Shown: piece by piece, positions 40,530-62,360 of the stretch
Layout of the letters: each line of letters begins with the position of its first letter
Position numbering within the stretch: position 1 is the first letter of the stretch
Source of the DNA: Terriglobia bacterium
Lineage (GTDB): Bacteria > Acidobacteriota > Terriglobia > Bryobacterales > UBA6623
DNA: 64,000 nucleotides
NCBI GenBank assembly: GCA_009838515.1
Contig: VXRL01000016.1
Location: 62,001-126,000, forward strand
Direction of reading: 5' to 3'
Notes under the pieces: model-generated
Seen by the model: the letters and a program-made list of their open reading frames with translations, nothing else
What the model was told of the DNA's origin: nothing
The model's database searches: none
Made by a program: the position numbers and the translations under genes

Positions 40530-41903
40530 ATGGCAACAACTCGACGGAAGTTCGTGACCAAGACGGCTTTGGGAGCGGGCCTTGCGGCTGCATCGGCCCA
40601 GTCCGGCAGGGGTCAAGCGGCCCCGAGCGACACCGTCAACATCGCTGTCATAGGCATCCGCGGCCGCGGCCGCAGTCACTACCGGGAGTTTTCCGCGATG
40701 CCGGGCGTGCGGGTCACGCACCTGTGCGATATCGACGAGCGCCTGTTTCCCGAAGCGCTCGCGGAGGTCGAGGGGGCGGCGGGCTACCGTCCGGAGACGG
40801 AGACTGATTTCCGCCGCCTGCTGGAGCGTGACGACATTGACGCGATCTCAGTGGCAACGCCGGACCACTGGCACGCCCTGATGACTGTTTGGGGGTGCCA
40901 GGCGGGCAAGGACGTTTACTGCGAAAAGCCGTGTTCCTACACGCTGTGGGAGGGCCGCAAGATGGTCGAGGCGGCCCGCAAATACGGGCGCATGGTCCAA
41001 GTCGGGCTCCAACGCCGCAGCTCGCGGCGCGTGCAATCGGTGACCAGCTACGTGCGGAGCGGCGGGTTCGGCAATGCGTACCGCGCCAAAGCGGTCGTCT
41101 ACCGAGGCAGGATCAGCATCGGCAAGGTGCAGGAGTCATCGATACCTGAAGGCGTGAATTGGGACCTCTACCTGGGACCGGCACCGTACCGCGCGTTTGA
41201 CCTGAACCGCTTTCACTATGGCTGGCACTTCTTCTGGGACACGTCGACGTCGGAAGTCGGCAACAACGGCGTGCATTATCTCGACGTGCTGCGCTGGGGC
41301 TTGGACAAGCAGGTCCATCCGGTGCGAGTTCATTGCGCCGGGGGCCAGTTCGTGGAGGACTCGGACTCCGAGGTGCCAAACGTGCAGGTGGGCACGTTCG
41401 AGTACGCGGACGGGACGCTGCTCGAGATCGAGGCGACCACGCTCTACAGCCCGTCCTTCGGAGGCGTGCGCGTGGGAGGCTTCTTCTTCACCGATCAGGG
41501 GTACATCGGCTCCCACGACAACTGGAAGGCCACTCGGGGACAGTTCGTGCCGCGGGACCGCCCCGACTCCGCATCCGGGGTGTCCTACCGGACGAACAAT
41601 CTCAGCTTTCCGGATATTTCCTACCCGCCGGGACCGGAGATCCCGGATCTCGACCTGCCAGAGGTGGGCCACTTCCAGAACTTCATCGACTGCGTGCGCT
41701 CCCGCAAGCGCGACGACCTGAACTGCGAGGTCGAGCAGGGCCACTTGTCAACCTCCCTGTGCCATCTCGCGAATATCGCCTACCGTGTCGGCCGCAAGCT
41801 GGAGTTCGATCCGCAAAGCGAGACGTTTGCCGACGACGAGGCAGCGAACGCCTTACTCACGCGGAAGTACCGCGAGCCATATGTGATGCCCGATCAAGTA
41901 TGA
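40530..41903 (+). CDS. Tat-exported Gfo/Idh/MocA-family oxidoreductase
   Basis: A 457-aa protein with a twin-arginine signal (TTRRKFVTKTALGAGLAA). Rossmann domain: VNIAVIGIRGRGRSHYREF, DIDERLFPEAL, DAISVATPDHWHALMTV, and KDVYCEKPCSYTLWEGRKMV (EKP motif). The C-terminal half is the GFO_IDH_MocA catalytic/dimer domain. A GGAGG-type site (GGAGGGCGGC) precedes the ATG and TAGAAT (40485-40490) is a possible -10. By family it oxidises sugars or inositols with a tightly bound NAD(P); Tat export is common for Planctomycetota and Acidobacteriota members. A decayed copy of the last 95 codons lies 1.8 kb downstream. Confidence 0.94.
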   Translation: MATTRRKFVTKTALGAGLAAASAQSGRGQAAPSDTVNIAVIGIRGRGRSHYREFSAMPGVRVTHLCDIDERLFPEALAEVEGAAGYRPETETDFRRLLERDDIDAISVATPDHWHALMTVWGCQAGKDVYCEKPCSYTLWEGRKMVEAARKYGRMVQVGLQRRSSRRVQSVTSYVRSGGFGNAYRAKAVVYRGRISIGKVQESSIPEGVNWDLYLGPAPYRAFDLNRFHYGWHFFWDTSTSEVGNNGVHYLDVLRWGLDKQVHPVRVHCAGGQFVEDSDSEVPNVQVGTFEYADGTLLEIEATTLYSPSFGGVRVGGFFFTDQGYIGSHDNWKATRGQFVPRDRPDSASGVSYRTNNLSFPDISYPPGPEIPDLDLPEVGHFQNFIDCVRSRKRDDLNCEVEQGHLSTSLCHLANIAYRVGRKLEFDPQSETFADDEAANALLTRKYREPYVMPDQV

Positions 41904-42476
41904 ATCTTGCGAGGTGAATTGAATCGGCGAGTAGCACGAGAGAAACTCCACCAACCAGTCGCTTCGGCGACATTTGAAGGAATTCTTCGAACCCGCAGCA
42001 TAAACAGGTTCAGAGCGTGGCAATCGCGAATAGTCGCCTTCCTGTCGGCAGGGGGCTGGAGCAAACTTGACAGCGAGAACGGGGCATGCCGTGACCCGAT
42101 CGACTCCCGATCAGTTCTATGCTGGAGGGCAACGGCACCGAGTTCACGGCACCCTCGTAATATCCGAATGTGTGCCCAAGCTTGAAATGAACTAGTGACA
42201 ATCACCTGTACCTGCCGGGATTCGAGCGACTCGTCCGGGGACAGCGAACAACGATTCTCGCGTTGCGATAGCAGAAAAACCGATGCCCACGGGAACGCTT
42301 GGACTTGCAGTGTGATGCATCGTATTGACGGTGCGAGCGCATCATCTGTGCCCGGCCTAGAGATTCGCCATCACTCGTGGGATACAGGAGTCGTTTGCGG
42401 TAACCCGCCGGCGCAGATCTGGCAGATCTGTGCGGGGGCCACCGTGCAACGGGTGTCACAGCCGCAATCCCAAGGG
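41904..42476. other. Gene-free stretch at the left edge of the defence island
   Basis: About 570 bases with no supported gene on either strand. A 17-base near-palindrome CAGATCT-GGC-AGATCTG lies at 42414-42430. No tRNA, integrase remnant or attachment-site duplication was recognised here. The composition looks less GC-rich than the flanking operons, consistent with an island boundary. Confidence 0.45.
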
Positions 42477-42508
42477 GCGGGCCACGCTGGTGCTCTAGCG
42501 TGGCCCGC
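42477..42508 (-). terminator. Perfect 12-bp hairpin downstream of the 50-aa gene
   Basis: GCGGGCCACGCT (42477-42488) and AGCGTGGCCCGC (42497-42508) pair perfectly around an eight-base loop. On the minus strand it lies about 24 bases after the stop of the small gene and is the strongest hairpin seen in this part of the window. No U-tract follows, so it could be a Rho-type pause or processing site rather than an intrinsic terminator. Confidence 0.5.
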
Positions 42509-42531
42509 GACACCTACGTTTGACAAGTCAA

Positions 42532-42684
42532 CTAGCGACGACGCTCTCGAACCAGAAAGCGCCAAGCCTTCCGACCGTAGTCTGCAGCCCTCATGATCTT
42601 TCCTGTTCGTGCGTGCTTGTAGTAGGTGCAGTACACCCACCGAAAGCCTCTTGGCGCATCGCCAGGGATCTTTCGATCTCTCAT
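42532..42684 (-). CDS. Small basic protein, 50 aa, unknown
   Basis: An ATG at 42684 preceded on the minus strand by ACGGAGGTCTGTG, a strong ribosome binding site, opens a 50-aa frame: RDRKIPGDAPRGFRWVYCT, then YKHARTGKIMRAADYGRKA and a terminal WRFLVRERRR. The frame is open upstream to 42786, but the RBS argues for the short form. The aromatic-rich core ending in a basic helix looks like a genuine small domain, perhaps nucleic-acid binding; I recall similar small hypothetical proteins (inference). It lies inside the island beside the 175-aa protein, with a hairpin after its stop. Confidence 0.6.
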   Translation of the reverse strand: MRDRKIPGDAPRGFRWVYCTYYKHARTGKIMRAADYGRKAWRFLVRERRR

Positions 42685-42989
42685 CACAGACCTCCGTAGT
42701 TGGCAGGCCCGTGTCTTTCGGCGGTTGCAGTACCCTCGAGAATCGCCTATTCTAACGAGTGAAACGGAGACAACCTGCCTGAGCATTACGGGCGGAATCT
42801 CTTAGCCCCCGCAGGATCGGGTAAGGAACTTGCGGGGGCATCAACATCAACTAGCTAGCTTCAGGTGGGCTGCGACCGCTGAATTCTGTGAGTTCGGGCG
42901 TGCTGACGCCAGAAAAGGGTCGCAATAGGTTTGACGCCCATCTAGATCGAGCAGCACCGTATTGCATCGTGGTCGATCCTCCCAACTCG
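42685..42989. other. Spacer with a 9-bp stem between the two small minus-strand genes
   Basis: No gene supported. GCCCCCGCA (42805-42813) and TGCGGGGGC (42831-42839) form a perfect nine-base stem with a 17-base loop, a possible transcript end for the 42990-43517 gene on the minus strand. Confidence 0.4.
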
Positions 42990-43517
42990 TCACTGTGATT
43001 TCGGGGATTCATCTGAAGCTTCCTCCAACGGGTCAATGCCCTCCGCCTGTTCAGCGGCCGACTGGCCGGGCGTAGTCGGGTCCGCGGAAATCCACTGATA
43101 TACGCTCGGCGTACTTCCCGCCCCCTTTCGTACGATCCGTAGCTTTTTCTCACGAGCGAGATTTCCGAGACAAGCGGAAACGCTTCCTTCCGGCTTCTGG
43201 CTCAACGGAAAGTCTACTTGCCTGAGATACGCCAACATTCGGCGTGTCGTCCACTGCTCATGGGCATACTCCTCGCAAACTTCGGCGACTTTGCTCGCGA
43301 GGCTCTGGGACGCAGATGTAGCGTCTAAAGGTGGAAGCGGCATCGTCTCGGCACCGTGTCCGCTGATTGCGTTGCACAACTCCTCTCCCAGCTCTCCAGA
43401 GTCGTAACGCTCAAGTAGCGCCCTCATTCCCCTCACGGCTTCCATGTCTCGCTCATAGCGATCCTTCGCGGCTTTCTCGAATCGATCCACGACCGCCTTC
43501 GTCAACTGAATGGCCAT
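42990..43517 (-). CDS. Unknown 175-aa protein with winged-helix-like C-terminal domain
   Basis: The ATG at 43517 is preferred over the longer frame to 43556. Residues about 1-50 are a charged helix (VVDRFEKAAKDRYERDMEAV); a low-complexity linker follows; residues about 90-155 (EQWTTRRMLAYLRQVDFPLS ... NLAREKKLRIVRKGAGSTPSVYQW) look like a winged helix, with helix-turn-helix then a basic wing. That would suit a local transcription regulator of the defence island, though the sequence shows no operator. It is divergently placed from the DISARM operon, with the Gfo/Idh/MocA pseudogene between them. I do not recognise a named family. Confidence 0.65.
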   Translation of the reverse strand: MAIQLTKAVVDRFEKAAKDRYERDMEAVRGMRALLERYDSGELGEELCNAISGHGAETMPLPPLDATSASQSLASKVAEVCEEYAHEQWTTRRMLAYLRQVDFPLSQKPEGSVSACLGNLAREKKLRIVRKGAGSTPSVYQWISADPTTPGQSAAEQAEGIDPLEEASDESPKSQ

Positions 43518-43662
43518 GGGTAAAGTATAGCACGCCGGAGAGAGGCGCGCGGCCAAGGCGCGAGAGGGAGAGCAATTTATGCAATCCTACACAAACATGG
43601 AGAATTGTACAGCTAGCGGTGCGAGGTGCGGCCTAAGCCTTCACGGTGTTGTAGCGCTTATT

Positions 43663-43947
43663 TTCTACCTGCCGGGACCGGAGATCTCGGATCTCGACCT
43701 GCCTGAAGTGAGTCACTTGCGGCACTTTATCGAGCGCATGCACTCGCGCAAGCGCTAGGACCTGAATCGCGAGGTCGAGTAGCGTCGCCTGTCAACGTCC
43801 ATGTGCCACTCGGCGAACATCGCCTACCGGGTCGGCCGCAAGCTGGACTTCGACCCGCACAGCGAGACGTTCGACGACGACGAAGCGGCGAATGCGCTGC
43901 TGACGCGGGAGGACCGCGAGCCGTACGTGATGCCGGATCAGGTGTAG
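43663..43947 (+). pseudogene. Decayed 3' remnant of a Gfo/Idh/MocA oxidoreductase gene
   Basis: Read in frame from 43663 this is a 95-codon ungapped copy of the last codons of the intact gene (41619-41903): both contain PGPEI, DLDLPEV, ANIAYRVGRKL and end REPYVMPDQV. Two in-frame TAG stops interrupt it, at 43756-43758 and 43780-43782; about three quarters of residues still match by eye. Everything upstream of this point is unrelated, so the rest of the copy is lost. It marks either an ancestral tandem paralogue destroyed by the island, or a duplication of the flank on island entry. The small open frame at 43803-44036 is out of frame with this remnant and was not accepted. Confidence 0.85.
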
Positions 43948-44099: not shown

Positions 44100-47000
44100 A
44101 TGGTTGCAACCGGAGCAGTTCAAGTCGATCGGCCGGTCCCGGGCCAGATCGTTCAGGTGCGGTCTCGGCGGTGGCTTGTCGAGACGGTGGAAGCGAGGCA
44201 CAACGGGGAGTCGCCGCTCGTGCGGCTGGCTTGCGCCGACGACGACGCGCAAGGCCAGGTTCTCGATGTTTACTGGGACTACGAGACCGACCGTGAGATT
44301 CTCGCCGAGGAAGGTTGGGCGAACCTCGCGGCCAGAGGCTTCGATCATCCGCGGTATTTTTCTGCGTTCCTCCATACCATCCGCTGGAATTGCGTGACGT
44401 CTACGGACGCGAAGCTCGTCCAAGCCCCTTTCCGCGCCGGCATCAAGCTTGATGCGTATCAAATTGAGCCGTTGCGGAAGGCTCTACAGCTGCCTCTCGT
44501 CAACCTGTTCATCGCTGACGACACGGGGCTCGGCAAGACCATCGAGGCTGGCCTGATCGCACGGGAACTGCTGCTTCGGAAGAAGGTTGAGACTATCGTG
44601 GTTTCGGCGCCTCCATCGGTACTCGACCAGTGGCGGGCTGAATTCGACCAGCGTTTCGGGCTGGTCTTCGAAATCCTCGACAGGCAGTACCTAGCCCGGA
44701 TGAGGCGCGAGCGAGGGTTCGGTATCAATCCCTGGCGGACACACAGCCGATTCCTCGTGTCGCACAACCTGCTGACCGATCCGACCTACGCGGACCCGTT
44801 GAGGGAGCGGCTCGGAGACCGCCTTCACGGAAGCTTGCTGATTCTCGATGAAGCACACCACGCCGCGCCATCAAGCGGCGGCCGCTACGGTATCGAGACG
44901 AAGTTCACGCGCGCCATTAGGGACATTTCGGGGCGGTTCGAGCACCGACTCTTCCTGTCCGCGACTCCACACAACGGCCATTCGAGCAGTTTCTCGACGC
45001 TGCTGGAGCTGCTCGACCCCCACCGCTTCACGCGAGGGGTGAAAGTCAATGAGAAGGCGCTCAAGGAGGTCATGGTCCGCAGGCTGAAGGAGGATATTCG
45101 GAGTCTCCAAGGAGGCTTCCCCGAGCGTGAAGTCAAGCCAATCACCATCAACGACCTTCCCGCAGATTCACCCGAGCTGGTCCTGTCGGAGTTGCTTGAC
45201 GAGTACCGCACAGCGCGGGAGCAGCGATTGGCCGGGCGGTCCAGGAGCGCTCGCGCAAGCGCAGCGCTCCTGGTAGTCGGCCTCCAACAGCGCCTCCTGT
45301 CGTCGATCGAGGCATTTGCTCGCAGCCTAGAAGTCCATCAGAAGACGGCACTGCGGCAGCGCGAGCAGGCCCTCGAACTGGGTGAACCGGGGCGAGAGGC
45401 TCACCGAACCGACGGACTGCTCATCACGCGCCCGCAGGGCGCGGACGACGAGCTTGCGGTCCAAGAAGACGACGATCTGCAGGCAGAGGAAGATAGCCAG
45501 ATTGAGTCCGCGACGCTCGAGAGCGAGTCGGGTTCGGCCGCGGAGGTCGATCAGTGGCAGCGAGAGCTTGAATTGCTCGACAGGATGCAGAGGATCGCGG
45601 ATAAGGCGCGGGGTCTGCCCGATGCCAAAATCCGCTGGCTCCTCGATTGGATTCGCGAAAACATGTGCTCTATCGGGGCAACCAATGTCCCGGCGCCGAA
45701 TTGGAACGACCGGCGCATTCTGATCTTCACCGAGAACAGGCAGGGGACGAAACGGTACCTGCGGGACATGATCGAGCAGGCGATCGCAGGCACCGATCAG
45801 TGCCACGAACGTATCGAGGTCATCGACGGGCTTACCAGCAGCGCCCGCCGCCGGGAAATCCAACGGCGGTTCAACGCTCCGCCGAGCGAGGATCCGCTGC
45901 GAATCCTGCTCGCAACGGATGCGGCCCGCGAGGGGCTGAACTTCCAAGCTCATTGCGCAGACCTTTTCCACTATGACCTTCCTTGGAATCCTGGCCGCAT
46001 CGAGCAGCGCAATGGTCGCATCGACCGCAAACTGCAAGCGGCCCCCGTGGTGCGCTGCCACTACTTCGTGTTGCCGCAGCGGCGCGAGGACCGAGTCCTG
46101 GAAGTGCTCGTAAACAAGACCGAGACAATTCGGCAGGAACTTGGCAGTCTCTCGAAAGTCCTTGATGATGCCATCGAGCAGAGGCTCGTTCAGCAAGGCA
46201 TCCGTCATGCGGACGCCGAATCTCTCGCCCAAGAGATCGAACGCAAGGATGTCGAGTCCGCCAAGAAGCAAACGTCCCGGGAGGAGTTGGACTCGGCACG
46301 GGAACGGCACGACGAGCTTCAGCAGCAAGTCGAGGGCTGCCGAAAGATGCTACAGCGTTCCAGAACTCATGTGAGATTCGACTCGGAACAGTTTCGAAAG
46401 GCGCTGTCGTGTTCACTGGAGCTGCTCGGCGCAGCTCCGCTTCAGGAGTCGCCTGACTCCATCGGACGCGGTACTTGGACGCTGCCGCAGCTCGATCAGA
46501 GGTCAACGACCGATCCGAGTTGGACCGCAACCTTGGATACGCTGCGCGCTCCGAGGAAACGCGACCAGAAGATCAGCGATTGGAGGAAGGAGGCACCGAT
46601 CCGCCCCGTGGTATTCGAGGACACAGGCGTCCTCAGTGATAAGACCGTCCATCTGCATCTCGAGCAACGCCTCGTACAGCGGCTTCTGGCGCGGTTCCGC
46701 TCTCAGGGATTCGTGCATCACGACCTGTCCAGGGCGTGCCTTGCCCAGACAGCCGACTCTGTGCCACGCGTCGTTCTGCTGGGACGCTTGCTGCTGTTCG
46801 GCAGGCGGGCCGAGAGGCTGCATGAAGAAATCGTGCCCGTGGCAGCTCATTGGACGGAGCCGTCACGCAGGAACGGGCGGCTCGCTCCATACGGGAGCAG
46901 CGCGGAAGCGAAGACGCTCGATCTACTGGACCAATCACTTGCTCGCACGGGAGCTCGAGAGCCGAGCGAGACGATTCGGGCGAAGCTCCTTTCAGCAGCG

Positions 47001-47372
47001 GCTCGCGATATCGAGGAATTGCTGCCGCAACTCGAGCGCACGGCCGAGGGAGCCGCGGTTGACGCGGAGAAGCTCCTGGCCGACAGAGGCCGTATCGAAG
47101 AAAGCAAGCTGGCAGAGACGCTGAAGGCACAGAAAAAGCGCGTGCTCGCCGCACTCGAGAAGCAGACCGCCGCAGGCAAGCAGCTCAGCCTAGGATTCAG
47201 GGCCGAGGAACAGAGACAGGTCGAAGCCAACGTTCGGGCTTGGAACCGCCGGATCGATGCATTTGATCGGGACATCGAGACTGAGCCCGGACGAGTCCGG
47301 GAACTCTACAAGGTGGCGACTCGCCGCGTCGAGCCCCTGGGCCTCGTGTACCTCTGGCCTGAAACGAACTGA
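44100..47372 (+). CDS. drmD: DISARM DrmD, SNF2-family helicase/translocase
   Basis: A 1090-aa SNF2-like ATPase. Motif I DDTGLGKTIEAGLIA (about residue 142), Ia VSAPPSVLDQWRAEF, DEAH box LLILDEAHHAAPSS (about 250), III FLSATPHNGH, IV FTENRQGTKRYL, and V-VI ATDAAREGLNFQAH ... WNPGRIEQRNGRIDRKLQ (about 600-640). Acidic linker about residues 445-475 (VQEDDDLQAEEDSQIES) and a C-terminal coiled-coil part. It is the class 1-specific subunit of DISARM, which limits phage DNA in the cytoplasm. First gene of the operon; its TGA overlaps the ATG of drmMI (TGATG). A TATATT hexamer at 44049-44054 may be the -10 of the operon. Confidence 0.93.
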   Translation: MVATGAVQVDRPVPGQIVQVRSRRWLVETVEARHNGESPLVRLACADDDAQGQVLDVYWDYETDREILAEEGWANLAARGFDHPRYFSAFLHTIRWNCVTSTDAKLVQAPFRAGIKLDAYQIEPLRKALQLPLVNLFIADDTGLGKTIEAGLIARELLLRKKVETIVVSAPPSVLDQWRAEFDQRFGLVFEILDRQYLARMRRERGFGINPWRTHSRFLVSHNLLTDPTYADPLRERLGDRLHGSLLILDEAHHAAPSSGGRYGIETKFTRAIRDISGRFEHRLFLSATPHNGHSSSFSTLLELLDPHRFTRGVKVNEKALKEVMVRRLKEDIRSLQGGFPEREVKPITINDLPADSPELVLSELLDEYRTAREQRLAGRSRSARASAALLVVGLQQRLLSSIEAFARSLEVHQKTALRQREQALELGEPGREAHRTDGLLITRPQGADDELAVQEDDDLQAEEDSQIESATLESESGSAAEVDQWQRELELLDRMQRIADKARGLPDAKIRWLLDWIRENMCSIGATNVPAPNWNDRRILIFTENRQGTKRYLRDMIEQAIAGTDQCHERIEVIDGLTSSARRREIQRRFNAPPSEDPLRILLATDAAREGLNFQAHCADLFHYDLPWNPGRIEQRNGRIDRKLQAAPVVRCHYFVLPQRREDRVLEVLVNKTETIRQELGSLSKVLDDAIEQRLVQQGIRHADAESLAQEIERKDVESAKKQTSREELDSARERHDELQQQVEGCRKMLQRSRTHVRFDSEQFRKALSCSLELLGAAPLQESPDSIGRGTWTLPQLDQRSTTDPSWTATLDTLRAPRKRDQKISDWRKEAPIRPVVFEDTGVLSDKTVHLHLEQRLVQRLLARFRSQGFVHHDLSRACLAQTADSVPRVVLLGRLLLFGRRAERLHEEIVPVAAHWTEPSRRNGRLAPYGSSAEAKTLDLLDQSLARTGAREPSETIRAKLLSAAARDIEELLPQLERTAEGAAVDAEKLLADRGRIEESKLAETLKAQKKRVLAALEKQTAAGKQLSLGFRAEEQRQVEANVRAWNRRIDAFDRDIETEPGRVRELYKVATRRVEPLGLVYLWPETN

Positions 47373-50300
47373 TGGCACAGGTGGATTCCGTCACCCAAGC
47401 CCACTTGGACTGGCTGGGGTTCGTGCAACCGCACGGACTTGTTGTCTCGGCTCCGGCACTCGTACGGGCCGGAGCAATTCTGAACCGGAATGATCGGGAA
47501 GGGCAGGAACTGGTAAGGCGGTGTGTCGACGAGCGGCTGGCCGGAACGGACGGAGATGTCGAGCATTGGCTGCCTGACTTCGAATCCTTCGCTAGACAGG
47601 TTTTGGGATGGAGCTTTTCTGCGAAGGTATTCGCTCAACCGAACGGATCCCAAGATGCCCTCGACCAACTTGCCGTACCGCTGGCCGAACACGAGGAGGT
47701 CTTGAGGCCCGACTACGCGGTTCGGCACTGGCCGCCCCCGACAAACGGAGAGCCGGAATGGCAGCTGCTAGTGCGGGTAGTCGATCCATTTCAACACTTC
47801 GATGCCTCGGAACGCGGGCGTGGAACCTTGGAGGCATCACCGCACGGACGGATGGAGAGGCTACTGCGAGCGACAGGCGTTGGCGCGGGCGTGATCTTCA
47901 ACAGCAGGGCGGTCCGATTGATATCGGCACCTCGCGGCGAGAGCTCGGGATGGCTCGAATTCCGTGTCGAGGATATGCTGCTGACGGCGGGCAGGCCGAT
48001 CGTGGCGGCGATGCGGCTGTTGCTGAGTCAGAGCCGTCTGCTAACTGGGCCGCAGACCTCGAGACTGACAGCACTCCTCAAGGAAAGCAGGGAGTACCAG
48101 AACGTCGTCAGCGAGCGCTTGGCGGAGCAGGTCCTGCACGCCCTATACGAATTGCTGCGAGGATTCCAAGCGGCCGACGACTCTTCCAGAGGTGCTCTGC
48201 TGCGGGCTGCACTGGAGAAGTCTCCAGATACTGTGTACCGAGCACTGCTCACAGTGATTCTGCGGTTGGTGTTCCTGCTCTATGCCGAGCAGCGCGATCT
48301 CCTACCAAACGACGAGACGTTCGTCCGGTTCTACTCGCTGGCCGGACTGCACGACAGGCTGCGGGAAGATGCCGCGCAGTACCCCGACACGATGGACCAG
48401 CGCTACGGGGCGTGGGCCCAGCTGACGGTACTGTTCCGCATGATCCATGACGGGGCGAGGTCGGGCGAGATGGAATTGCCTTCCCGCCAAGGGGCTCTCT
48501 TTGATCCAGAACGATTCGAGTTCCTAGAGAGGGTGCCGGCGGAGGGCGGGACAGAACTCGGTGGAGGGGTGATCGCGCCACTCGTTCCAGACGGGACCGT
48601 CTACAGGGTATTGGAAAAGTTGCTCGTCCTCGACGGCGAGAAGATTTCGTACAGGGCTCTGGATGTCGAGCAGATCGGTTCGGTCTACGAGACGATGATG
48701 GGCTTCCGGCTGGAGACGGCCACAGGGATTTCGGTATCCATTAAGGCAGCGAAGAAGAACGGGGCGCCTTCGACCATCGATATCGAGGCCCTGCTCGCCG
48801 AAGATGCTGCAAATCGAAGGAAGTGGATCCAAGACAGGACTGACCGGAAGATCACGGACAAGGTAAATCGAGCGGTCCGAGAGGCCAGCACGATCGATGA
48901 GATCTATGCGGCACTAGAGCCTGTGGTGGACAAGGCGGCAACCCCCGATCGGGTTCCGGCCGGGGCACTGATCCTCCAACCGAGCGAAGAACGTCGGCGT
49001 TCCGGCTCGCACTATACGCCGAGAGCGCTTACTGAGCCGATCATGCGGAAAACGCTCGGCCCAGTGCTTGAGGAGCTTCGGGAGAAAGGCGGAGGCAATC
49101 TGACGCCCCAGCAGATTCTTGAGATCAAGGTCTGTGACCCGGCGATGGGGTCGGGGGCATTCCTCGTGGAGGCGTGCCGACAGCTAGGTGACGCGCTCGT
49201 CGAAGCTTGGCATGCGACTAAATCGCAACCGGAGGATCTCGCCGGGGAAGACGAAGTCACCGTTGCTCGCCGAGTTGTTGCTCAGAGATGCCTGTACGGG
49301 GTGGACCGGAACGTGGTCGCCGTGGATCTGGCCAAGATGTCGCTATGGCTCATCACGCTTGCGAAACGCTATCCGCTGACATTTGTGGATCACGCGTTGC
49401 GGCACGGCGACTCGCTGCTAGGCCTGAGACTCGATCAGATCGAATGGTTCCATTGGCGCAGCGGCGAGAGAGGATTCGAGGCCACCATCGAATTCAAGGA
49501 GGTCATGCGGAGCCTTGAACGGGTCTCGCGGCTCCGGAAAAGAATCCAAGAATCCGAGCTATCTGCAAGGACGCAAGAACTGCGGGAGCTGTGGGGCAAA
49601 ACAGGGGACGAACTCGTTCGAGCGAGGCTGCTGGGAGATCTGCTGCTGTCGGCCTTCTTCAAGGGCAAGAAACCCAGAAACAGAGAAGTCGCGAGGTCAG
49701 AATACTCCAAGGTGATTCTAGATCCAGATTCGGACGATCCGGCCAATCCGCTTGACGACCTCCGGTACGAGGCGAAACCGCTGGCCTCCTTCCACTGGGA
49801 GATCGAGTTTCCCGAAGTGTTCGAGCGGGAAAATCCGGGCTTTGACTGTATCATCGGAAACCCTCCGTTCGCAGGAAAGAACTCAGTGATTGGGGCAAAT
49901 GCCGAGGGATACATAGACTGGCTAAAGGTCACCCATCCGGCCAGCCATGGTAGCGCCGATCTAGCCGCCCACTTCTTCAGAAGGGCGTTCTCCAAATTGC
50001 GCGAAGGCGGAAATCTGGGCCTCGTCGCGACGAACACGATCGGGCAGGGCGACACGCGATCAACGGGCCTGCGATGGATCTGCACGAATGGCGGTGAGAT
50101 CTACGAAGCTACACGACGTCTGCCCTGGCCGGGGATGGCCGCGGTTGTCGTAAGCGTGGTGCACATCCACCGCGGCCATTGGAGCGGCAAGCGGGCGTTG
50201 GACGGGACCAAGATCGATTCAATCTCGGCCTATCTCTCAGCCGGCTCAACGCACGATGATCCGGCGCGATTGGCTGAAAACAAAGACCAGAGCTTTCAAG

Positions 50301-51478
50301 GCAGCATCGTTCTTGGGATGGGCTTCACCTTCGACGATACGGACAAGAACGGCGTGGCATCGTCACTGGCGGACATGCAGCGGCTCATCGATACGAATCA
50401 GAAGAACCAGGAGCTGATCTTCCCGTACATCGGCGGCGAGGAATTGAACTCGAATCCAACTCATGCGCATCATCGGTACGTCATCAACTTCCACGACTAC
50501 CCACTCAGACGGGACCCGGATTTGGAGGGATCTTGGTCCGAAGCAGAGCAATCGCTTCAGAAACGATGGCTGCGAGAGGGGGTCGTTCCGCATGACTATC
50601 CGCACCCCGTGGCGCAAGACTGGCCGAATCTCCTAGAGATCGTTAATCCGAAGTCGGCGACGAGCGCTGAGGAACAGGATGCGACAGACTGTCGGCAGCG
50701 ATGGTGGCAATTCCTTCGAAGACGGCCTGCTCTCGCTCGGGCAATCAAAGGACTCGATCGGGTGCTGGCAATTTCGAGTGTTGGCCAACATGCAACGTTC
50801 GCGTTTTTGCCCCCGGATATGGTGTACTCACACGCGCTCATCATATTCCCGTTCGCAACGTTTGCGGCCTTCTGCGGCCTGCAGTCTCGTGTGCATGAGA
50901 TTTGGGCGAGGTCCTTTGCGTCATCGATGAAGGATGACCTGCGATACACGCCCACCGATTGTTTTGAAACCTTCCCATTCTCTCGAGGGTGGGCAACCAG
51001 CAATCGACTGGAGGGAGCGGGGAGGGAGTACTACGAATTTCGCGCCGCACTCATGCAGCGTAATGGCGAGGGATTGACAAAGACATACAACCGTTTCCAC
51101 GACCGGTACGAGAACGACCCGGACATTGCTCGTCTACGGCAACTGCACGATGCGATGGACCGCGCTGTGCTCTCGGAATACGGACGGGACGACATTCCGG
51201 TCAAGTGCGAGTTCCTCTCTGATCTGGAGTCCGAAGAGGAATCAACCAGCAGGAGATTCTTGCGCTATCGGTGGCCCAACGAGATTCGCGACGAAGTTCT
51301 CGGGCACCTGATCGAACTAAACTCCAAACGTGCCCAGGAAGAACAGCAGAGCGAGAAGGCAAGGACTGGTGAACCCAAACCCCGACCACAGACGCTCCGA
51401 CCGCCACAGGAGGAATTGCAGACGGATTCCCGCAGATCTCCAGCGTCCCCAGCACTCTTCGAGGGCGATGACCAATGA
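47372..51478 (+). CDS. drmMI: DISARM DrmMI, N6-adenine DNA methyltransferase
   Basis: A 1368-aa DNA methyltransferase of the Eco57I/N6_Mtase class. SAM motif I is VCDPAMGSGAFLVEACRQLG (about residue 587) and the catalytic motif is CIIGNPPFAGKN (NPPF, about 828). A large N-terminal region without clear motifs (1-480) and a C-terminal target-recognition-like region (about 900-1300) flank the catalytic core; a hydrophilic proline-rich tail ends the protein. In class 1 DISARM this enzyme marks host DNA and so prevents self-targeting. It overlaps drmD by one base. The 3' end lies 11 bases before the end of the antisense relE fragment, where the cargo segment begins. Confidence 0.93.
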   Translation: MAQVDSVTQAHLDWLGFVQPHGLVVSAPALVRAGAILNRNDREGQELVRRCVDERLAGTDGDVEHWLPDFESFARQVLGWSFSAKVFAQPNGSQDALDQLAVPLAEHEEVLRPDYAVRHWPPPTNGEPEWQLLVRVVDPFQHFDASERGRGTLEASPHGRMERLLRATGVGAGVIFNSRAVRLISAPRGESSGWLEFRVEDMLLTAGRPIVAAMRLLLSQSRLLTGPQTSRLTALLKESREYQNVVSERLAEQVLHALYELLRGFQAADDSSRGALLRAALEKSPDTVYRALLTVILRLVFLLYAEQRDLLPNDETFVRFYSLAGLHDRLREDAAQYPDTMDQRYGAWAQLTVLFRMIHDGARSGEMELPSRQGALFDPERFEFLERVPAEGGTELGGGVIAPLVPDGTVYRVLEKLLVLDGEKISYRALDVEQIGSVYETMMGFRLETATGISVSIKAAKKNGAPSTIDIEALLAEDAANRRKWIQDRTDRKITDKVNRAVREASTIDEIYAALEPVVDKAATPDRVPAGALILQPSEERRRSGSHYTPRALTEPIMRKTLGPVLEELREKGGGNLTPQQILEIKVCDPAMGSGAFLVEACRQLGDALVEAWHATKSQPEDLAGEDEVTVARRVVAQRCLYGVDRNVVAVDLAKMSLWLITLAKRYPLTFVDHALRHGDSLLGLRLDQIEWFHWRSGERGFEATIEFKEVMRSLERVSRLRKRIQESELSARTQELRELWGKTGDELVRARLLGDLLLSAFFKGKKPRNREVARSEYSKVILDPDSDDPANPLDDLRYEAKPLASFHWEIEFPEVFERENPGFDCIIGNPPFAGKNSVIGANAEGYIDWLKVTHPASHGSADLAAHFFRRAFSKLREGGNLGLVATNTIGQGDTRSTGLRWICTNGGEIYEATRRLPWPGMAAVVVSVVHIHRGHWSGKRALDGTKIDSISAYLSAGSTHDDPARLAENKDQSFQGSIVLGMGFTFDDTDKNGVASSLADMQRLIDTNQKNQELIFPYIGGEELNSNPTHAHHRYVINFHDYPLRRDPDLEGSWSEAEQSLQKRWLREGVVPHDYPHPVAQDWPNLLEIVNPKSATSAEEQDATDCRQRWWQFLRRRPALARAIKGLDRVLAISSVGQHATFAFLPPDMVYSHALIIFPFATFAAFCGLQSRVHEIWARSFASSMKDDLRYTPTDCFETFPFSRGWATSNRLEGAGREYYEFRAALMQRNGEGLTKTYNRFHDRYENDPDIARLRQLHDAMDRAVLSEYGRDDIPVKCEFLSDLESEEESTSRRFLRYRWPNEIRDEVLGHLIELNSKRAQEEQQSEKARTGEPKPRPQTLRPPQEELQTDSRRSPASPALFEGDDQ

Positions 51479-51489
51479 ATGCCGCCACG

Positions 51490-51762
51490 TCAGGCAGCGG
51501 CGCTTGAACCTCCCGGAAAACCCAATTCCACACGGACGAAGCTACATTGATTCCCTGATTCTGGAGCGGCCACGACACCATCACTCTCAGCTATCTCATT
51601 CGCATCTATATACTCGGTCCCGGGCACGTCTTGCGGAATCCGCGCAGACCTCCAATATGCCTTGCGTCTGTGAAGCACTCGGAGTACACGGATCAGACTC
51701 GATGTGATCTCCAGGATCAATCGCCGGTCACCGATTCTTAGCCGAATCCTCGGCGAATCAAA
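51490..51762 (-). pseudogene. C-terminal half of a split RelE-family toxin gene
   Basis: In frame from base 51762 the minus strand reads FDSPRIRLRIGDRRLILEI, then SLIRVLRVLHRRKAYWRSARIPQDVPG, aligning with GFDPPEYRLRVGDWRVRYRL ... RVLHRREAYRKSALIRQDVPS of the intact toxin at 62003-62359. There is no start codon or N-terminal half here; the missing half, ending QLRGF, lies at 53206-53375 on the same strand, 1.44 kb upstream. Joined, the two give a complete RelE apart from one frameshift. Confidence 0.75.
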
Positions 51763-52237
51763 GTCGTGGCGCTATCTGGCAAGAGCCAGCGGATCTACAA
51801 GACGATGGATTGTTCGGGGGGCGTGAAGTTCGTCCGTCCGCGAGTGACTCGAGATGTCCTCGGGAAGTACGTGGCCACCTCCAAAGGGAGTCCGGCCAAG
51901 TCGGCACGCCTGTGTAGCCCTCTGCTGCAGCGTATCGGGCGGATCGGCTACGAAATCAAGGCGATTGAAGTTCGGCAGCAGGCCCGCGTTTCTGCGCGAC
52001 AGCGCTCTAACAGAGTGTGGGTCGTCTGAGGTCGCCAGAGGCACCTCTCACGCCGTAGCCGCAAGGTCGCATCAACTGGAAGCGCACACGAAACTGCAGC
52101 GACAACGCTCTCCGCTGCCCGCCACGTTAGATCCACCTGAGCTAAGCTGCCTCAGCAGAGGCGAGTGCGTCAGCGCGCGCTGGGCTCTGGTGCGCCACGC
52201 TAGCATTCTGGAAGACAAGGAATGAGAATCTCCTGAC

Positions 52238-52396
52238 ATGAAGGTGGAACTACTGACATGTTTCTGCGAGCTGTCTGGCGGCGACTGCGAGGTCGTTGGC
52301 AAAGCCCTCGGTCCTACGGCGACTGGGCTCGTCACCTATTTCCCCTACGATGCGTCGAGGTGCCCCGTTGTCCGTTTCGAACCCAAGTCCCTCTAG
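52238..52396 (+). CDS. Possible 52-aa small protein
   Basis: An ATG-initiated frame (MKVELLTCFCELSGGDCEVV ... YDASRCPVVRFEPKSL) inside the inserted segment, 112 bases upstream of the 218-aa gene. Composition is protein-like (cysteines, GxxG turns) but no family is recognised and the ribosome binding site is weak. It may be an accessory small protein or simply an open frame. Confidence 0.3.
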   Translation: MKVELLTCFCELSGGDCEVVGKALGPTATGLVTYFPYDASRCPVVRFEPKSL

Positions 52397-52508
52397 TTCG
52401 GGAACTTCGCAAGTGGCTCTGGGGGCCAAAACGTGTCACCAGCGGTCAGCAAGAGAGGTCGCACAGATTTCCTAGAATGACGGGTGAAGCTTAACGGAGC
52501 ACGACCAA

Positions 52509-53165
52509 ATGACTGCGGCAACGCTTGCTCAGACCATTGGCAGGTACTACGAACAGGCACACAGCGATCCGGATGGTCGCGAGCGATCTTGGGACCACTG
52601 CTACGGCTTTTTCCGAGAGCATTGCAGGGATCTCGCACAGGTTAAAGAAACCGCTGCACTCCACTTGGGCTTCTACCTCGCGAGCTGGGGCATGTATCGC
52701 CCCTCCGGCTTTCTCTGGAGGCACACTTACACGGCACACATCCCGGTCATCTGCACTCTAGCCTCGCCTAAGTTCTCGGAACTATTGCACCATGATATCG
52801 GCTCACAAGATCGAGACGTCGAACTCGCACCCACCATAATCGAACTGGTGCAGTCGGTTAAGGTGGCGTACCAGCGATTCGGGAACGCAAGTGACTTGCT
52901 GGCCACGAAGGTGCTGCTGGGGACGGTAGGTTGCCTCCCGGCGTGCGATAGGTATGTCAAGAATGGTTTCGCGGCGCAGAAGCTTCTGTTTTCACGACTT
53001 GATCGAGGATCCGTCGATCGCATTCTGCAATTCTGTGTCCAGAATCGGATGGAACTGGCAGAGCAACAGTCCAAGATTGATGATTGCGGCGGCCCACGGT
53101 ATCCGCTCATGAAACTAGTGGACATGCACTTCTGGCAGATCGGCTATGAGTTGGAATCCACTTGA
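52509..53165 (+). CDS. Unknown 218-aa protein in DISARM cargo
   Basis: An ATG with CGGAGC upstream opens a 218-aa, single-domain, mostly helical protein. Distinctive parts are SWDHCYGFFREHCRDL, ALHLGFYLASWGMYRPSGFL (about residues 49-68), KVLLGTVGCLPACDRYVKNG and the C-terminal HFWQIGYELEST. I recall a widespread hypothetical family with the LGFYLASWGMYRGS motif that is often seen near restriction and abortive-infection genes; this is memory, not a search. No catalytic motif is obvious. It is the only complete gene in the segment that splits relE, and has the same orientation as the DISARM genes, so it may be read through from drmMI. Confidence 0.78.
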   Translation: MTAATLAQTIGRYYEQAHSDPDGRERSWDHCYGFFREHCRDLAQVKETAALHLGFYLASWGMYRPSGFLWRHTYTAHIPVICTLASPKFSELLHHDIGSQDRDVELAPTIIELVQSVKVAYQRFGNASDLLATKVLLGTVGCLPACDRYVKNGFAAQKLLFSRLDRGSVDRILQFCVQNRMELAEQQSKIDDCGGPRYPLMKLVDMHFWQIGYELEST

Positions 53166-53205
53166 CTTCCAAGAGCGGGTCTTGGAATTCCGAACATCAA
53201 GCGGT

Positions 53206-53375
53206 AAAGCCCCTGAGTTGACAGGTGTCTCCGAACCCAGGCCCCCCGCCATGCGTCGCACCGCGAGCTTGATGCGATCAACTTCCCGTCTGGAGAGGCT
53301 TGTGAGATCGGCGCTAGCCGGCCCGGTCCAATCGACAGATGGAACTTGACTAGGGCTACTTGTGGCCGAGTTCAC
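53206..53375 (-). pseudogene. N-terminal half of the split RelE-family toxin gene
   Basis: A GTG at 53375, overlapping the antitoxin 3' end, opens VPSVDWTGPASADLTSLSRRE then VDRIKLAVRRMAG, matching RTIDWTRQARSDLKKLSKQD ... RVQRAVERLAES of the intact toxin. After the run of six G (near 53250) the match continues only in another frame as GFGDTCQLRGF, consistent with a two-base insertion in the G tract. The homology stops at GF, where the inserted segment begins; the continuation is at 51490-51762. Confidence 0.75.
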
Positions 53376-53607
53376 GCATCACGTCATCGTGAGAAATGCC
53401 TCTCCCCCGATTCTGCACAAGCCATTCCAAGGCCTCGTCCATCGCCTCTATTTCCGCCTCGGTTGCAGGCTCTTCGTCGTAAGGTGCTATTCGTGCGGCC
53501 GGGCCAAGTCTGTGACGATACGTCGCCAAGAACTCCTTCAGCCCAGCTAGGGCCTCCGTGGCCATCCGATCAATCTCTTCGTGAAGTTCTGGCCGAAGAT
53601 CAGCCAT
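53356..53607 (-). CDS. Antitoxin of the split RelE module
   Basis: An 83-aa protein with a GAGGAA site seven bases before its ATG. It is a homologue of the antitoxin at 62361-62612: both share LHEEIDRM / VHEEIDRM near the start, a long charged helix (GLKEFLATY / GLKKLLASY), an acidic middle (EEPATEAEIEAMDEALEW / EEARLVAEADEW) and NRGRGISHDDVMREL / NDGRGIPHEEIVREF at the end. No ribbon-helix-helix is evident, so the fold is uncertain. Its toxin partner is broken, leaving it an orphan that could still neutralise a related toxin. Confidence 0.75.
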   Translation of the reverse strand: MADLRPELHEEIDRMATEALAGLKEFLATYRHRLGPAARIAPYDEEPATEAEIEAMDEALEWLVQNRGRGISHDDVMRELGHK

Positions 53608-53741
53608 CTCTGTTCCTCACCGCCATCATTCGCACGAGATCGCACTCCACGGGCTAGCCTAGCAGTCCGCTATGGCAACACCCGTCCCGAACGGCCGTTC
53701 GCCAAATCGTGCGTACCATGTAGAAATCAGTTCATCTGTCG

Positions 53742-56700
53742 ATGGCCACACCCAGTCCTCCTCCCGAACCTTCCCCGCCCCGAGACTCCGTCGAGGTCAG
53801 AGACCAGTTGGTTGAGGCGCTAAGGCTTGACCTAGTTGGGCCATGGTCCGGCCATCGTCTGGAGACCGAGCAGATCCCGAACTACACCGGAATCGTACGA
53901 CCCTCCAACTGGTATCTGACCGGATTCATCGTCCCTCCAGACACAGCTGCCTCCGAAGCCGCCAACTCGGAAATCAGTGACGACTTGGACGAGACGCCCG
54001 ACAAAGCAGGCACGACTGAGGAGTCCAGCGACGAAGGCAGATCTGCCAAGAGAGGCTACTTTCCCTCGTCGATCGGTCTCAGCTTCATGATCGATGGCGA
54101 CACGAAAGAGCTTGCTGTCACCGTCCGATGGGGCGACTATGCGCCCGAAGAGATCGACGAGACGCGCCTATGGAGCCGGATTCCCCGCGAGGAATCAACG
54201 GTCATCAACGTTCCAACAACCGAGAACACCCCGGAGTGGGAGATTCCGGGCTCGAGGGGGCTGGCTTTGCGTACCGTCACTAGGCAGGTCGCGACCCATG
54301 CACAAGGAGGGTTCGATCCCGGATCTCGGGCAGTCTCGGTCTTTCTGACGAACCACAGAAAGCAGCAGCCCGGACAGGACGTCCACGAAGACACTCTCTT
54401 TGTTTTTCAGCCCGAGATCGAGGTCCGATGCGAGCGGCCGTTCCCATCCAAGCCAATGGCCCGATCTGGCAAGTCCGACGACTGGGACGAAGAAGTCGCA
54501 GGACTCCACTACGCAGACACGCCCGAGTACGCAACAGGCCACGGAGTTTCGGCTGACTGGGACGAGTGCGATGGTGTGTGCCGAGTAGTCCGCACCGCAT
54601 GGATCGGCCGGGCAAGAGTGGAGGTCACCTCCACTTCTCCAGTGGACGGCGTGGAGTTGTCAATGCGATCGCTCGGTTTGCTCTCGAGTGGGGCCGAAGT
54701 CCATAGTTCCCTCGACCATCTCGTCGCCCAATACCGTGCATGGATCGAAGCCCGCGATGCCGACACAGAGCAACTGGACGAACATCACATGGCGACCGCA
54801 CAGGAACTTCTGCGGCTGGCCGGAATCGCCGCTGATCGAATCGAGCGTGGAATCGAAGTTCTTGCGAATGACCCCGACGCTCTCGACGCGTTCCGCATTG
54901 CCAATCGAGCGGTGGCTCGCGCCCTCGAACAGCGCCTTGACATCGAGAATCCATCCTGGCGAGCTTTCCAGCTTGCATTCATCCTCCTAAATCTTCCAGG
55001 CATCGCCGATCCGAGTGACAGCTACCGAGAGACGGTGGACCTGCTCTTCTTCCCGACGGGCGGTGGCAAGACGGAAGCGTACCTCGGGCTCGCAGCGTTC
55101 GCGATGGTGCTGCGCAGGCTCCGCAATCCTAGCTCCCAAGGGCGCGCGGGGGCAGGTGTCTCAGTGGTGATGCGCTATACGCTGCGGCTGCTCACTTTGG
55201 ATCAACTGGCTCGAGCAAGCGGCCTCGTCTGTGCGCTCGAACTCGAACGCGAGAACGCCCCAGAGCGGCACGGCACGTGGCCCTTCGAGATCGGGTTGTG
55301 GGTCGGCACTGCCGCCACGCCCAACCGCATGGGCAAGAAAGGGGATGGCCGACAGGGAACCGCCCGTAGCAAGGTCAATCAGTTCAAGAGCGACCCCGCG
55401 AACAATCCTTCGCCGATACCGCTCGAGGAATGCCCCTGGTGCGGCGAGACGTTCGCGCCCGACTCGTTCAACCTCGTGCCGAACGCTGACAATCCCCTCG
55501 ATCTGAGGGTGCATTGCATGAACTTCGAGTGCGAATTCAGCGGGGAGCGAACGCTACCTGTAGTTGCCGTTGACGAGCCGCTCTACCGAAGGCTCCCAGC
55601 ATTCCTCGTTGCGACCGTCGACAAGTTCGCCTCGCTACCTTGGACGGGCCCGACCGGCACGCTGCTTGGCGGGGCAGATCGCTTCGACAAGGACGGATTC
55701 TACGGTGCCTTCGATTCCGGCCACGGAAATCGGCTCCACGCTCCCCTCCACCCTCCTGATCTGATCATTCAGGACGAATTGCACCTCATCTCCGGACCGC
55801 TCGGTACGATGGCCGGACTCTACGAGGCCGCGATAGAGGCTCTCTGTGTTCTCAAGTCAGGGAACCAATCCCTGCGCCCGAAGATTGTCGCGTCCACTGC
55901 GACGCTGAGGCGTGCGCAAAATCAAATCCAAGCACTATTCGCAAGGCCTCAAACCCAGATCTTCCCTCCCCCCGGGCCGGATCGGCGCGACACCTTTTTC
56001 GCTCGAACGGTTCCGGATACGGAGGAGGCAGCTCGTCTGTACTTGGGAATCTCGGCCCAAGGGCGCAGCGCCAAGGTCGTAACCCGCCGGGTAATCGTGG
56101 CACTGATGGGCGCAGCCATTCGTGCCTATCTGGATGCAGGTGGCGACGACAATCAGGACAACCCGGCGGATCCCTACATGACTGTCTTGGGATACTTCAA
56201 CGCACTCCGGGAACTCGGCGGAGCGAGAAGAATCATTGAGGAGGAAGTGCAGAACACGATCAGGCGCATCGGAAAGAAGAAGCGTTTCGGCGAAACTGCG
56301 GGCCTCTTCAGGGATCGCTTTCGCTTCTCGGAGGTTGTCGAACTTACCTCCAGAGTCTCGACGAACAAGGTCGCGGAAGCACGCCGCCTGTTGGGGAACC
56401 AGTACCGAACCAGGCCGTCCCCGACCGGCAAGGCTGTTGACTGCGCCATCGCCACGAACATGATCTCGGTCGGTCTCGACATCCAAAGACTGGGGCTCAT
56501 GACGGTCGTTGGCCAGCCTAAGACCGCAGCTGAGTACATCCAAGCCACCAGTCGAGTTGGGAGGGACTCAAGGCGGCCAGGCCTCGTGGTCACGCTCCTC
56601 AACATGCACAAGCCCCGAGACCGGTCGCACTATGAGAGGTTCAAACACTTTCACGAGACGTTCTACCGCGCCGTGGAAGTAGCAAGCATAACTCCCTTTG

Positions 56701-57146
56701 CATCGCGCGCTCTCGACCGCGGGCTCGCCGGCGCACTCGTGGGCCTAACCCGCCAAGCGCTGGCGCCGCTTACACCCCCTAGGGGAGCGAGTCAGATCAA
56801 GGAGTGTCGCCCGGAAGTGGAAGAATTGCTCAAGAGGGTCTTTTCTGATCGCATTCTCGACCAGCCGGGCTCATCAGAGAGTGAGGACGAACGAGCCGAG
56901 CGACTGCGTAGCGTGCGGGATCGGGTCGATGACCTGCTGGATGCATGGTCTGGGATTTCGTCCGAGAGCGAGAGCGTCGGTCAGCCACTCCAATATCAGA
57001 AGCATGAACGGGCGGCTTCCAGCAAGACTCTTCTTCGCGAGATGATGGACGACGATATCACGGACGAGTCGCATCGCAAGTTTCGCGCGAGTCGTTCCCT
57101 CCGCGATGTAGAACCCGAGGTAAGACTGAATCTCATCGAGTCGTGA
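53742..57146 (+). CDS. drmA: DISARM DrmA, helicase-domain protein
   Basis: A 1134-aa protein. The N-terminal third (1-430) has no enzyme motif. Helicase core: Walker A LLFFPTGGGKTEAYLGLAAF (about residue 436-455), a zinc-binding-like cluster CPWCGETF ... HCMNFEC (about 563-595), DExH box PDLIIQDELHLISGPL (about 672), VASTATLRRA, and a late ATNMISVGLDIQRLGLMTVV then AEYIQATSRVGRD (motif VI, about 930). With DrmB it forms the DISARM core complex that senses and acts on phage DNA. The start ATG follows the cargo segment and precedes drmB by 39 bases; drmABC are a compact operon. Confidence 0.93.
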   Translation: MATPSPPPEPSPPRDSVEVRDQLVEALRLDLVGPWSGHRLETEQIPNYTGIVRPSNWYLTGFIVPPDTAASEAANSEISDDLDETPDKAGTTEESSDEGRSAKRGYFPSSIGLSFMIDGDTKELAVTVRWGDYAPEEIDETRLWSRIPREESTVINVPTTENTPEWEIPGSRGLALRTVTRQVATHAQGGFDPGSRAVSVFLTNHRKQQPGQDVHEDTLFVFQPEIEVRCERPFPSKPMARSGKSDDWDEEVAGLHYADTPEYATGHGVSADWDECDGVCRVVRTAWIGRARVEVTSTSPVDGVELSMRSLGLLSSGAEVHSSLDHLVAQYRAWIEARDADTEQLDEHHMATAQELLRLAGIAADRIERGIEVLANDPDALDAFRIANRAVARALEQRLDIENPSWRAFQLAFILLNLPGIADPSDSYRETVDLLFFPTGGGKTEAYLGLAAFAMVLRRLRNPSSQGRAGAGVSVVMRYTLRLLTLDQLARASGLVCALELERENAPERHGTWPFEIGLWVGTAATPNRMGKKGDGRQGTARSKVNQFKSDPANNPSPIPLEECPWCGETFAPDSFNLVPNADNPLDLRVHCMNFECEFSGERTLPVVAVDEPLYRRLPAFLVATVDKFASLPWTGPTGTLLGGADRFDKDGFYGAFDSGHGNRLHAPLHPPDLIIQDELHLISGPLGTMAGLYEAAIEALCVLKSGNQSLRPKIVASTATLRRAQNQIQALFARPQTQIFPPPGPDRRDTFFARTVPDTEEAARLYLGISAQGRSAKVVTRRVIVALMGAAIRAYLDAGGDDNQDNPADPYMTVLGYFNALRELGGARRIIEEEVQNTIRRIGKKKRFGETAGLFRDRFRFSEVVELTSRVSTNKVAEARRLLGNQYRTRPSPTGKAVDCAIATNMISVGLDIQRLGLMTVVGQPKTAAEYIQATSRVGRDSRRPGLVVTLLNMHKPRDRSHYERFKHFHETFYRAVEVASITPFASRALDRGLAGALVGLTRQALAPLTPPRGASQIKECRPEVEELLKRVFSDRILDQPGSSESEDERAERLRSVRDRVDDLLDAWSGISSESESVGQPLQYQKHERAASSKTLLREMMDDDITDESHRKFRASRSLRDVEPEVRLNLIES

Positions 57147-57185
57147 GAAACCGTCACCGAGAGCCGGGAACTAGGACGAACAAGC

Positions 57186-59003: not shown

Positions 59004-59773
59004 TGATCAGCGCTCTCATCGCATTGCCGTCGCATGTTCGCCGCAAGCTCGCGGGCGCGCTTGAATCTGGGTCGCTAGCCCCGCCATTCACTCCGGCTAG
59101 CCTGCGATCAATGGCCGGTGTCGCAGACGAAGCCGTTTTGAACGCTTTGCAGGAGTGGCGACGACTCGGCGTCTCAGGCCGGGCCGGTGCAGCGTGGCTT
59201 CGAAGTCTCGAAGAGGCAGCCTCAGGTGTCGTGCCAGCAAGCTTGGTCTGGACCGGGCCTGAGGCCAAGGGATTGCATTCACGAGATACCCGTCAGGTCT
59301 ACGAGGAGATGATCGGGTCCGCTAAGCGATCAATCCTCATCAGTTCGTACGCCTACTTCGACGGCAAGAAAGCGTTTCAATTACTCGCCAAGCGCATGGA
59401 CAGTTCCCCCGAACTGAGAGCCTCGCTACTGCTTAACATCGAACGAGGACAGCAATCAACTACGAAATCGGAGGACTTGGTCCGACGGTTCGCGGACCGG
59501 TTCTGGAAGTCCGATTGGCCCGGAAAAGCCCGTCCGAGCGTCTATTACGATCCACGCTCTTTGGAACTCGACGGCCCCAAAGGTGTTCTCCACGCCAAAG
59601 CCGTCATTACGGACGAGGACGCTCTCTTCATTACGTCAGCAAACCTAACCGAAGCCGCCCTTGATAGAAACATCGAGGCGGGCGTGCTGCTCAGGGACCG
59701 GACCATCGTCCTCACCGCACTGGCGCATTTCCGAGGCCTGATTGACCAGAAACTCCTCTTGCCGCTGCCCTGA
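59003..59773 (+). CDS. drmC: DISARM DrmC, phospholipase D-superfamily nuclease-like protein
   Basis: A 256-aa protein with one PLD-type motif, LHAKAVITDEDALFITSAN then LTEAALDRNIEAG (HxK ... D, around residue 196-220), and an upstream RSILISSYAYFDG strand typical of PLDc_2 domains. PLD-family proteins cut phosphodiester bonds as dimers; in DISARM DrmC is the putative nuclease and is dispensable in some tests reported for the system. The start ATG overlaps the drmB stop by one base; the frame is open upstream to 58916 but that part is the drmB 3' end read in another frame. Last gene of the operon. Confidence 0.92.
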   Translation: MISALIALPSHVRRKLAGALESGSLAPPFTPASLRSMAGVADEAVLNALQEWRRLGVSGRAGAAWLRSLEEAASGVVPASLVWTGPEAKGLHSRDTRQVYEEMIGSAKRSILISSYAYFDGKKAFQLLAKRMDSSPELRASLLLNIERGQQSTTKSEDLVRRFADRFWKSDWPGKARPSVYYDPRSLELDGPKGVLHAKAVITDEDALFITSANLTEAALDRNIEAGVLLRDRTIVLTALAHFRGLIDQKLLLPLP

Positions 59774-61755: not shown

Positions 61756-62002
61756 GCTTCGCCACATTCGTGGGCCAGAGTGTGCCAGAATTCAGAGCCC
61801 ACATCGGTCATATTCGGTTGCCTAGCATGTATCCAAATGGCGCTCGCGGACCACAATCACGAAGTGGTCAATCGACAGAACGACCCGAAATCAGCAAATG
61901 CGAGGAAGTCTCGTCAAAGCTACACTTCCGAGATCGCCCATTGCCGTTCGTGAAGCTGATTAATCAAGATCCGCCGAGAACAGATCATCGACTTCGCTAG
62001 CC

Positions 62003-62359
62003 TCATGGTCTGTCGCTGCCACCATCCGGCAGCTCCCAGTTCAATTGGTCGTCGAAGCCATCGGCACTCGGGACATCTTGGCGAATTAGGGCCGACTTTC
62101 TATAGGCCTCGCGACGGTGAAGTACTCGCACAATCGGCATACTGTCGTTCTTGAGACGATACCTCACCCGCCAATCCCCCACTCTGAGTCTGTACTCTGG
62201 CGGATCGAAGCCCTTCAGATACTCAATATCGCCCAGACCCGACTCTGCCAATCGCTCTACAGCTCTTTGAACCCGATCAGAGTCTTGCTTCGAGAGCTTC
62301 TTTAGGTCGGACCGTGCTTGGCGCGTCCAGTCTATGGTCCTCGTCTGCCCCACTGGCAA
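62003..62359 (-). CDS. RelE/ParE-family toxin
   Basis: A 118-aa toxin: RTIDWTRQARSDLKKLSKQD, VERLAESGLGDIEYLKGF, PPEYRLRVGDWRVRYRL and VRVLHRREAYRKSALIRQDV are the RelE-type helical hairpin, sheet and C-terminal helix. The TTG at 62359 starts one base after the antitoxin stop; a GTG at 62353 is an alternative start. Likely an mRNA interferase or gyrase poison; the key catalytic residues cannot be assigned by eye. Intact copy of the toxin that is split at 51490-53375. Confidence 0.85.
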   Translation of the reverse strand: MPVGQTRTIDWTRQARSDLKKLSKQDSDRVQRAVERLAESGLGDIEYLKGFDPPEYRLRVGDWRVRYRLKNDSMPIVRVLHRREAYRKSALIRQDVPSADGFDDQLNWELPDGGSDRP

Positions 62360-62360
62360 C

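Follow-up and report, generated by a model that had tools for sequence, protein, structure and literature searches.

A decayed copy of a Gfo/Idh/MocA gene tail next to a DISARM system probably records a separate, small insertion

A duplicate of the tail of a Gfo/Idh/MocA-family oxidoreductase gene was located at 43663–43947 of the window (the whole 64,000-nt stretch of DNA that was analyzed). The evidence supports the view that this remnant is a decayed, partial duplicate that is linked to foreign DNA at the same spot. The history of the locus was corrected on this basis: this marker beside DISARM most likely dates from an insertion of its own, a small one, into the gene tail. On balance, we favor an origin in which a small circular DNA entered the 3′ end of the resident gene by one crossover, with the remnant as the right-hand copy of the resulting repeat. 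The source genome comprises 5.8 Mb in 99 contigs; among named genomes, MAGs of the Bryobacterales (Acidobacteriota) are the closest to it. The structure composed of the remnant and the adjoining 1.76-kb segment was found in this one genome only.

The remnant was aligned without gaps to 41619–41903, and 231 of the 285 nt (81.1%) were identical. The initial annotation had described an ungapped 95-codon copy of this interval with two TAG codons and about three quarters of its residues kept; the re-alignment and a residue count (72/94) agree. Identities at the three codon positions were 84/92/67%. The in-frame TAG triplets are codons 32 and 40 of the remnant, and its own stop lies at the same codon as that of the intact gene. 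Immediately 5′ and 3′ of the repeat, the similarity of the two copies drops to chance level, in keeping with the annotated absence of the upstream part of the copy; no trace of a second gene copy 5′ of codon 363 was found. When the genome's own proteins were searched, the remnant yielded E = 1.1e-40 with its two TAG codons, and it is thus not a chance match. It was the only other close copy of this gene tail in the genome. Homology, disabling changes, and the lack of a 5′ part of its own are all present, as in a pseudogene fragment. Gfo/Idh/MocA oxidoreductases are strongly expanded in this genome (72 matches to the protein of the intact gene). The nearest full paralogue is on contig C17 (73% protein identity); it was rejected as the source of the remnant, its tail reaching 74% compared to 84–87% for orthologues of the intact gene.

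The intact gene (40530–41903, plus strand; 457 aa; Pfam PF01408 and PF19051) is about 91% identical in nucleotides to its orthologues in five near relatives (G005, G001, G010, G006, and G003); two more distant congeners had lower values (G007, 79%; G009, 76%). The body of the gene is ordinary in comparison with the five near relatives. It is probably native up to about 41816, with its last ca. 76 nt replaced. This probable imported tail (41828–41903, plus strand) carries seven changes that are unseen in the five relatives, all of which are synonymous or lie within the stop codon. Its best identity to a relative is 84%, the lowest value when 4.5 kb were divided into 58 non-overlapping windows; only 3 of 4418 sliding windows were equally low. 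This anomaly had not been part of the initial annotation.

The two tail copies look like reciprocal mosaics, with an opposite ancestry switch near tail position 200; the statistical support for this reading of the sequences is good, if not final. All candidate split points were scanned, with the input limited to sites that differ between the two copies. The scan placed the switch after tail position 198 and before position 210, a result reached in 20 of 20,000 shuffles (p = 0.001). The crossover intervals would thus be tail positions 199–209 in both copies, i.e. 41817–41827 on the left and 43861–43871 on the right (both plus strand). At sites where the copies differ and the five relatives agree, the intact copy was favored every time at positions 2–198, and the remnant was favored 7 to 3 at positions 210–284. 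The 5′ part of the remnant (43663–43860, plus strand) is diverged and decayed, contains both TAG codons, and is 81–84% identical to the relatives, compared to 90–97% for the intact copy. Its 3′ part (43872–43947, plus strand), which is probably the displaced end of the native gene, is 93–95% identical to the two nearest relatives, compared to 79–82% for the intact copy; over tail positions 199–285, the identity of the remnant to G005 and G010 is 94–95%. On statistical grounds (the scan and the outlier window), the pattern corresponds to gene-tail replacement of the e14/icd type. The two-copy contrast scan and the 4.5-kb outlier test were the only significant tests. Change-point tests of unique differences were not significant for the whole intact gene by itself (79/300) or for the remnant by itself (158/2000). 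Trees of the two tail segments (87–198 nt) gave weakly supported placements, and strict lineage-diagnostic sites were noisy when used alone. Decay of the remnant is heavier in the 5′ part than in the 3′ part, and the changes in the 5′ half are mostly non-synonymous. A single age of decay therefore fits the remnant poorly; the difference suggests that the 5′ part has been non-coding for longer, possibly having been so already in the incoming molecule.

The segment between the copies (41904–43662; 1759 bp) has a GC content of 57%, compared to 63% in the native flank. It was unmatched in the five near relatives, and searches elsewhere returned short matches only. A phage, plasmid, or virus origin was dropped, as the segment had no match to any such source in the databases and a remnant-specific 24-mer was not found in viral contigs. 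Both of the small minus-strand genes that had been annotated in these 1.76 kb were judged plausible. One (42532–42786, 84 aa) matches the phage family phrog_33859 (E = 1.6e-7). The other (42990–43556) encodes 188 aa from a TTG start or 175 aa from an internal ATG; its product has relatives of 42–45% identity in two same-genus genomes (G007 and G008) and had no match in family searches. No tyrosine recombinase (PF00589) was detected inside the segment or on the whole 222-kb contig (C45), and matches to this family are present elsewhere in the genome. When the flank directly 3′ of the remnant was compared with native intergenic DNA, no match was significant.

The locus was compared among seven same-genus genomes that contain it; these are largely draft MAGs, and every empty site lies within one contig. 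In all seven, the Gfo gene is single and intact, and the next native gene is the counterpart of the window gene that starts at 62838 (long, on the minus strand, and convergent with the Gfo gene). Neither the remnant nor a DISARM system occurs at this spot in any of the seven, all of which have the Gfo gene beside its usual downstream neighbor. The gene pair is separated by short spacers in four relatives (35 bp in G007; G001, G003, and G005 have about 80 to 200 bp) and by other inserts in three (ca. 2.0 kb in G009, 2.9 kb in G010, and 3.2 kb in G006); the insert in the window is 20.9 kb. Because the relatives have short spacers or differing inserts there, the two genes border a spot at which insertions occur in this genus; at least four species have acquired differing cargo there.

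DISARM occupies 44100–59773 (plus strand), with drmD, drmMI, drmA, and drmB together, as in class 1 (PADLOC), followed by a PLD-domain gene that is drmC-like (Pfam). The remnant ends 152 bp before the start of drmD and so adjoins it on the upstream side, as had been annotated. The DISARM of G007 is on another contig and shares DNA similarity with 44139–59757, but not with 41904–43947. The remnant is accordingly not conserved with DISARM in that genome, and we judge from these alignments that it is adjacent to the DISARM unit yet separate from it. It had also been proposed that the remnant marks the left boundary of the island and owes its decay to the entry of DISARM. Neither proposal was supported. 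Similarity of the window sequence to the relatives stops where the intact gene does, at its stop codon (41903/41904); foreign DNA begins at 41904, or possibly inside the last ca. 80 bp of the gene (about 41817–41828). Thus, the foreign DNA already starts 1.76 kb to the left of the remnant, and the block shared with G007 omits both the remnant and that segment; the mosaic points to an event between the tail copies. The gene tail was also considered as the attachment site of the entire 20.9-kb island, and this was rejected because no tail copy is present near the right end, where only chance-level matches of 10–13 nt were found.

Reciprocal switches at one place in direct repeats that surround foreign DNA have the geometry of one crossover with a circle. 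If the segment alone arrived, the incoming circle would have been about 2.04 kb, i.e. 285 bp of gene tail and 1759 bp of cargo. The left copy would have kept the native gene body and acquired the incoming tail, preserving the protein. In the right copy, the truncated incoming 5′ part would have been fused to the displaced native tail, giving a pseudogene fragment. The donor would have been circular, and the agent may have been either a site-specific enzyme that has since been lost or homologous recombination by the host. Host recombination across 285 bp is the simpler agent because the contig contains no tyrosine integrase. DISARM would have arrived in a separate event. The empty sites in G005, G001, G003, and G007 and the different inserts in G009, G010, and G006 were counted in favor of the single crossover, as were the single gene in all of these genomes, the scan, the outlier tail with its synonymous or stop-codon changes, the DISARM block that leaves out the segment, and the e14 precedent. 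Counted against it were the missing tyrosine recombinase, the unmatched 3′ flank, the weak trees, the uneven decay of the two parts of the remnant, the noisy diagnostic sites, and the non-significant single-copy tests. A broader scheme, which we regard as a long shot, would have a recombinase-less mini-circle moving between species of the genus with the 285-bp core-gene tail as its homology arm, restoring each gene that it enters and opening a landing spot for defense islands.

A plain partial tandem duplication or tail capture, followed by neutral decay, is possible but rather unlikely. Under it, the halves would differ by chance and because the intact tail had undergone ordinary gene conversion. 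Gene conversion among relatives is frequent in bacteria, the decay of the 5′ half is mostly non-synonymous, and trees of so few nucleotides are weak, all of which suit such a history. It does not readily accommodate the fact that both copies switch oppositely at the same place, with scanning taken into account in the p-value, nor that the intact gene stands out within 4.5 kb in its last 76 nt, nor that 1.76 kb of lower-GC foreign DNA sits exactly between the copies.

We consider it improbable that the locus once had a full tandem paralogue that the entry of the DISARM island destroyed, as the initial annotation had it. The short distance to drmD and the lack of the remnant in relatives without DISARM at the spot are consistent with this idea; indeed, the observation that had been named as its refutation, a remnant in DISARM-free relatives, did not arise (0/7). 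However, the tandem pair that was to be sought in island-free relatives is absent from all seven congeners, no piece of a second copy was found upstream of codon 363, and the remnant clusters with single-copy orthologues rather than with a distinct paralogue lineage. The DISARM block common to G007 and the earlier start of the foreign DNA also argue against it. Also improbable is an e14-like integrative element that had its own integrase, used the gene tail as its attachment site, and was reduced to 1.76 kb by the later loss of its core. An element that has to restore the gene it targets would be expected to bring a replacement tail like this one, in which all changes are synonymous or fall in the stop codon. 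In addition, the segment contains a small phage-family gene, and a tyrosine recombinase encoded at one of the matches elsewhere in the genome could have acted in trans. Against this, neither an integrase nor a fragment of one is present here, the repeat reaches ca. 200 bp upstream of the putative crossover, beyond the needs of an attachment core, and the other inserts at the spot have no tail copies.

The single-crossover reading was compared with known systems. In E. coli, e14 resides in icd, and a 165-bp duplicate (icdC) with 12 nucleotide exchanges is present while the icd frame is intact (PMC11148124; the outcome is also described in PMC6379469). As in that case, the frame of the target gene appears to have been kept by an incoming 3′ end with mostly silent changes, and the displaced native tail would persist as a fragment on the far side. 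The present locus differs in that no integrase gene was found (PF00589 profile, contig C45), the segment is 1.76 kb and not a prophage, and the repeat is longer (285 bp), with a 5′ part that is decayed and has stop codons. It would thus be a case of gene-tail replacement with a displaced remnant that is readable without any integrase in sight. Campbell-type single crossovers by host homologous recombination likewise leave reciprocal hybrid direct copies around an insert, although the donor circle here is a deduction rather than an observation. Spots between convergent core genes that carry defense or toxin-antitoxin cargo are similar in that the same pair holds different inserts in each species; the insert in the window, however, has DISARM and a tail remnant, and those of the other species have neither.

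Several further observations were made on the inserts. The region that follows DISARM, before the island ends on the right, encodes a 636-aa protein with a glycine-zipper-like stretch (59857–61767, minus strand); family searches gave no confident family for it. As judged by eye, the differing cargo at the spot in other species of the genus (L037, L039, and L042) includes ORFs that resemble Uma2, toxin-antitoxin, and transposase genes. At the right end of the island, 452 bp (62331–62782) are common to the G010 insert (L037) at the same spot (94%). G010 has ca. 0.5 kb extra between these 452 bp and the downstream gene, and an 8-bp overlap of the matches could be a target-site duplication. Between drmMI and drmA, 347 bp (53272–53618) are 78% identical to a piece of the G006 insert (L039), also at the same spot; in G006, this piece adjoins small genes that resemble a toxin-antitoxin pair.
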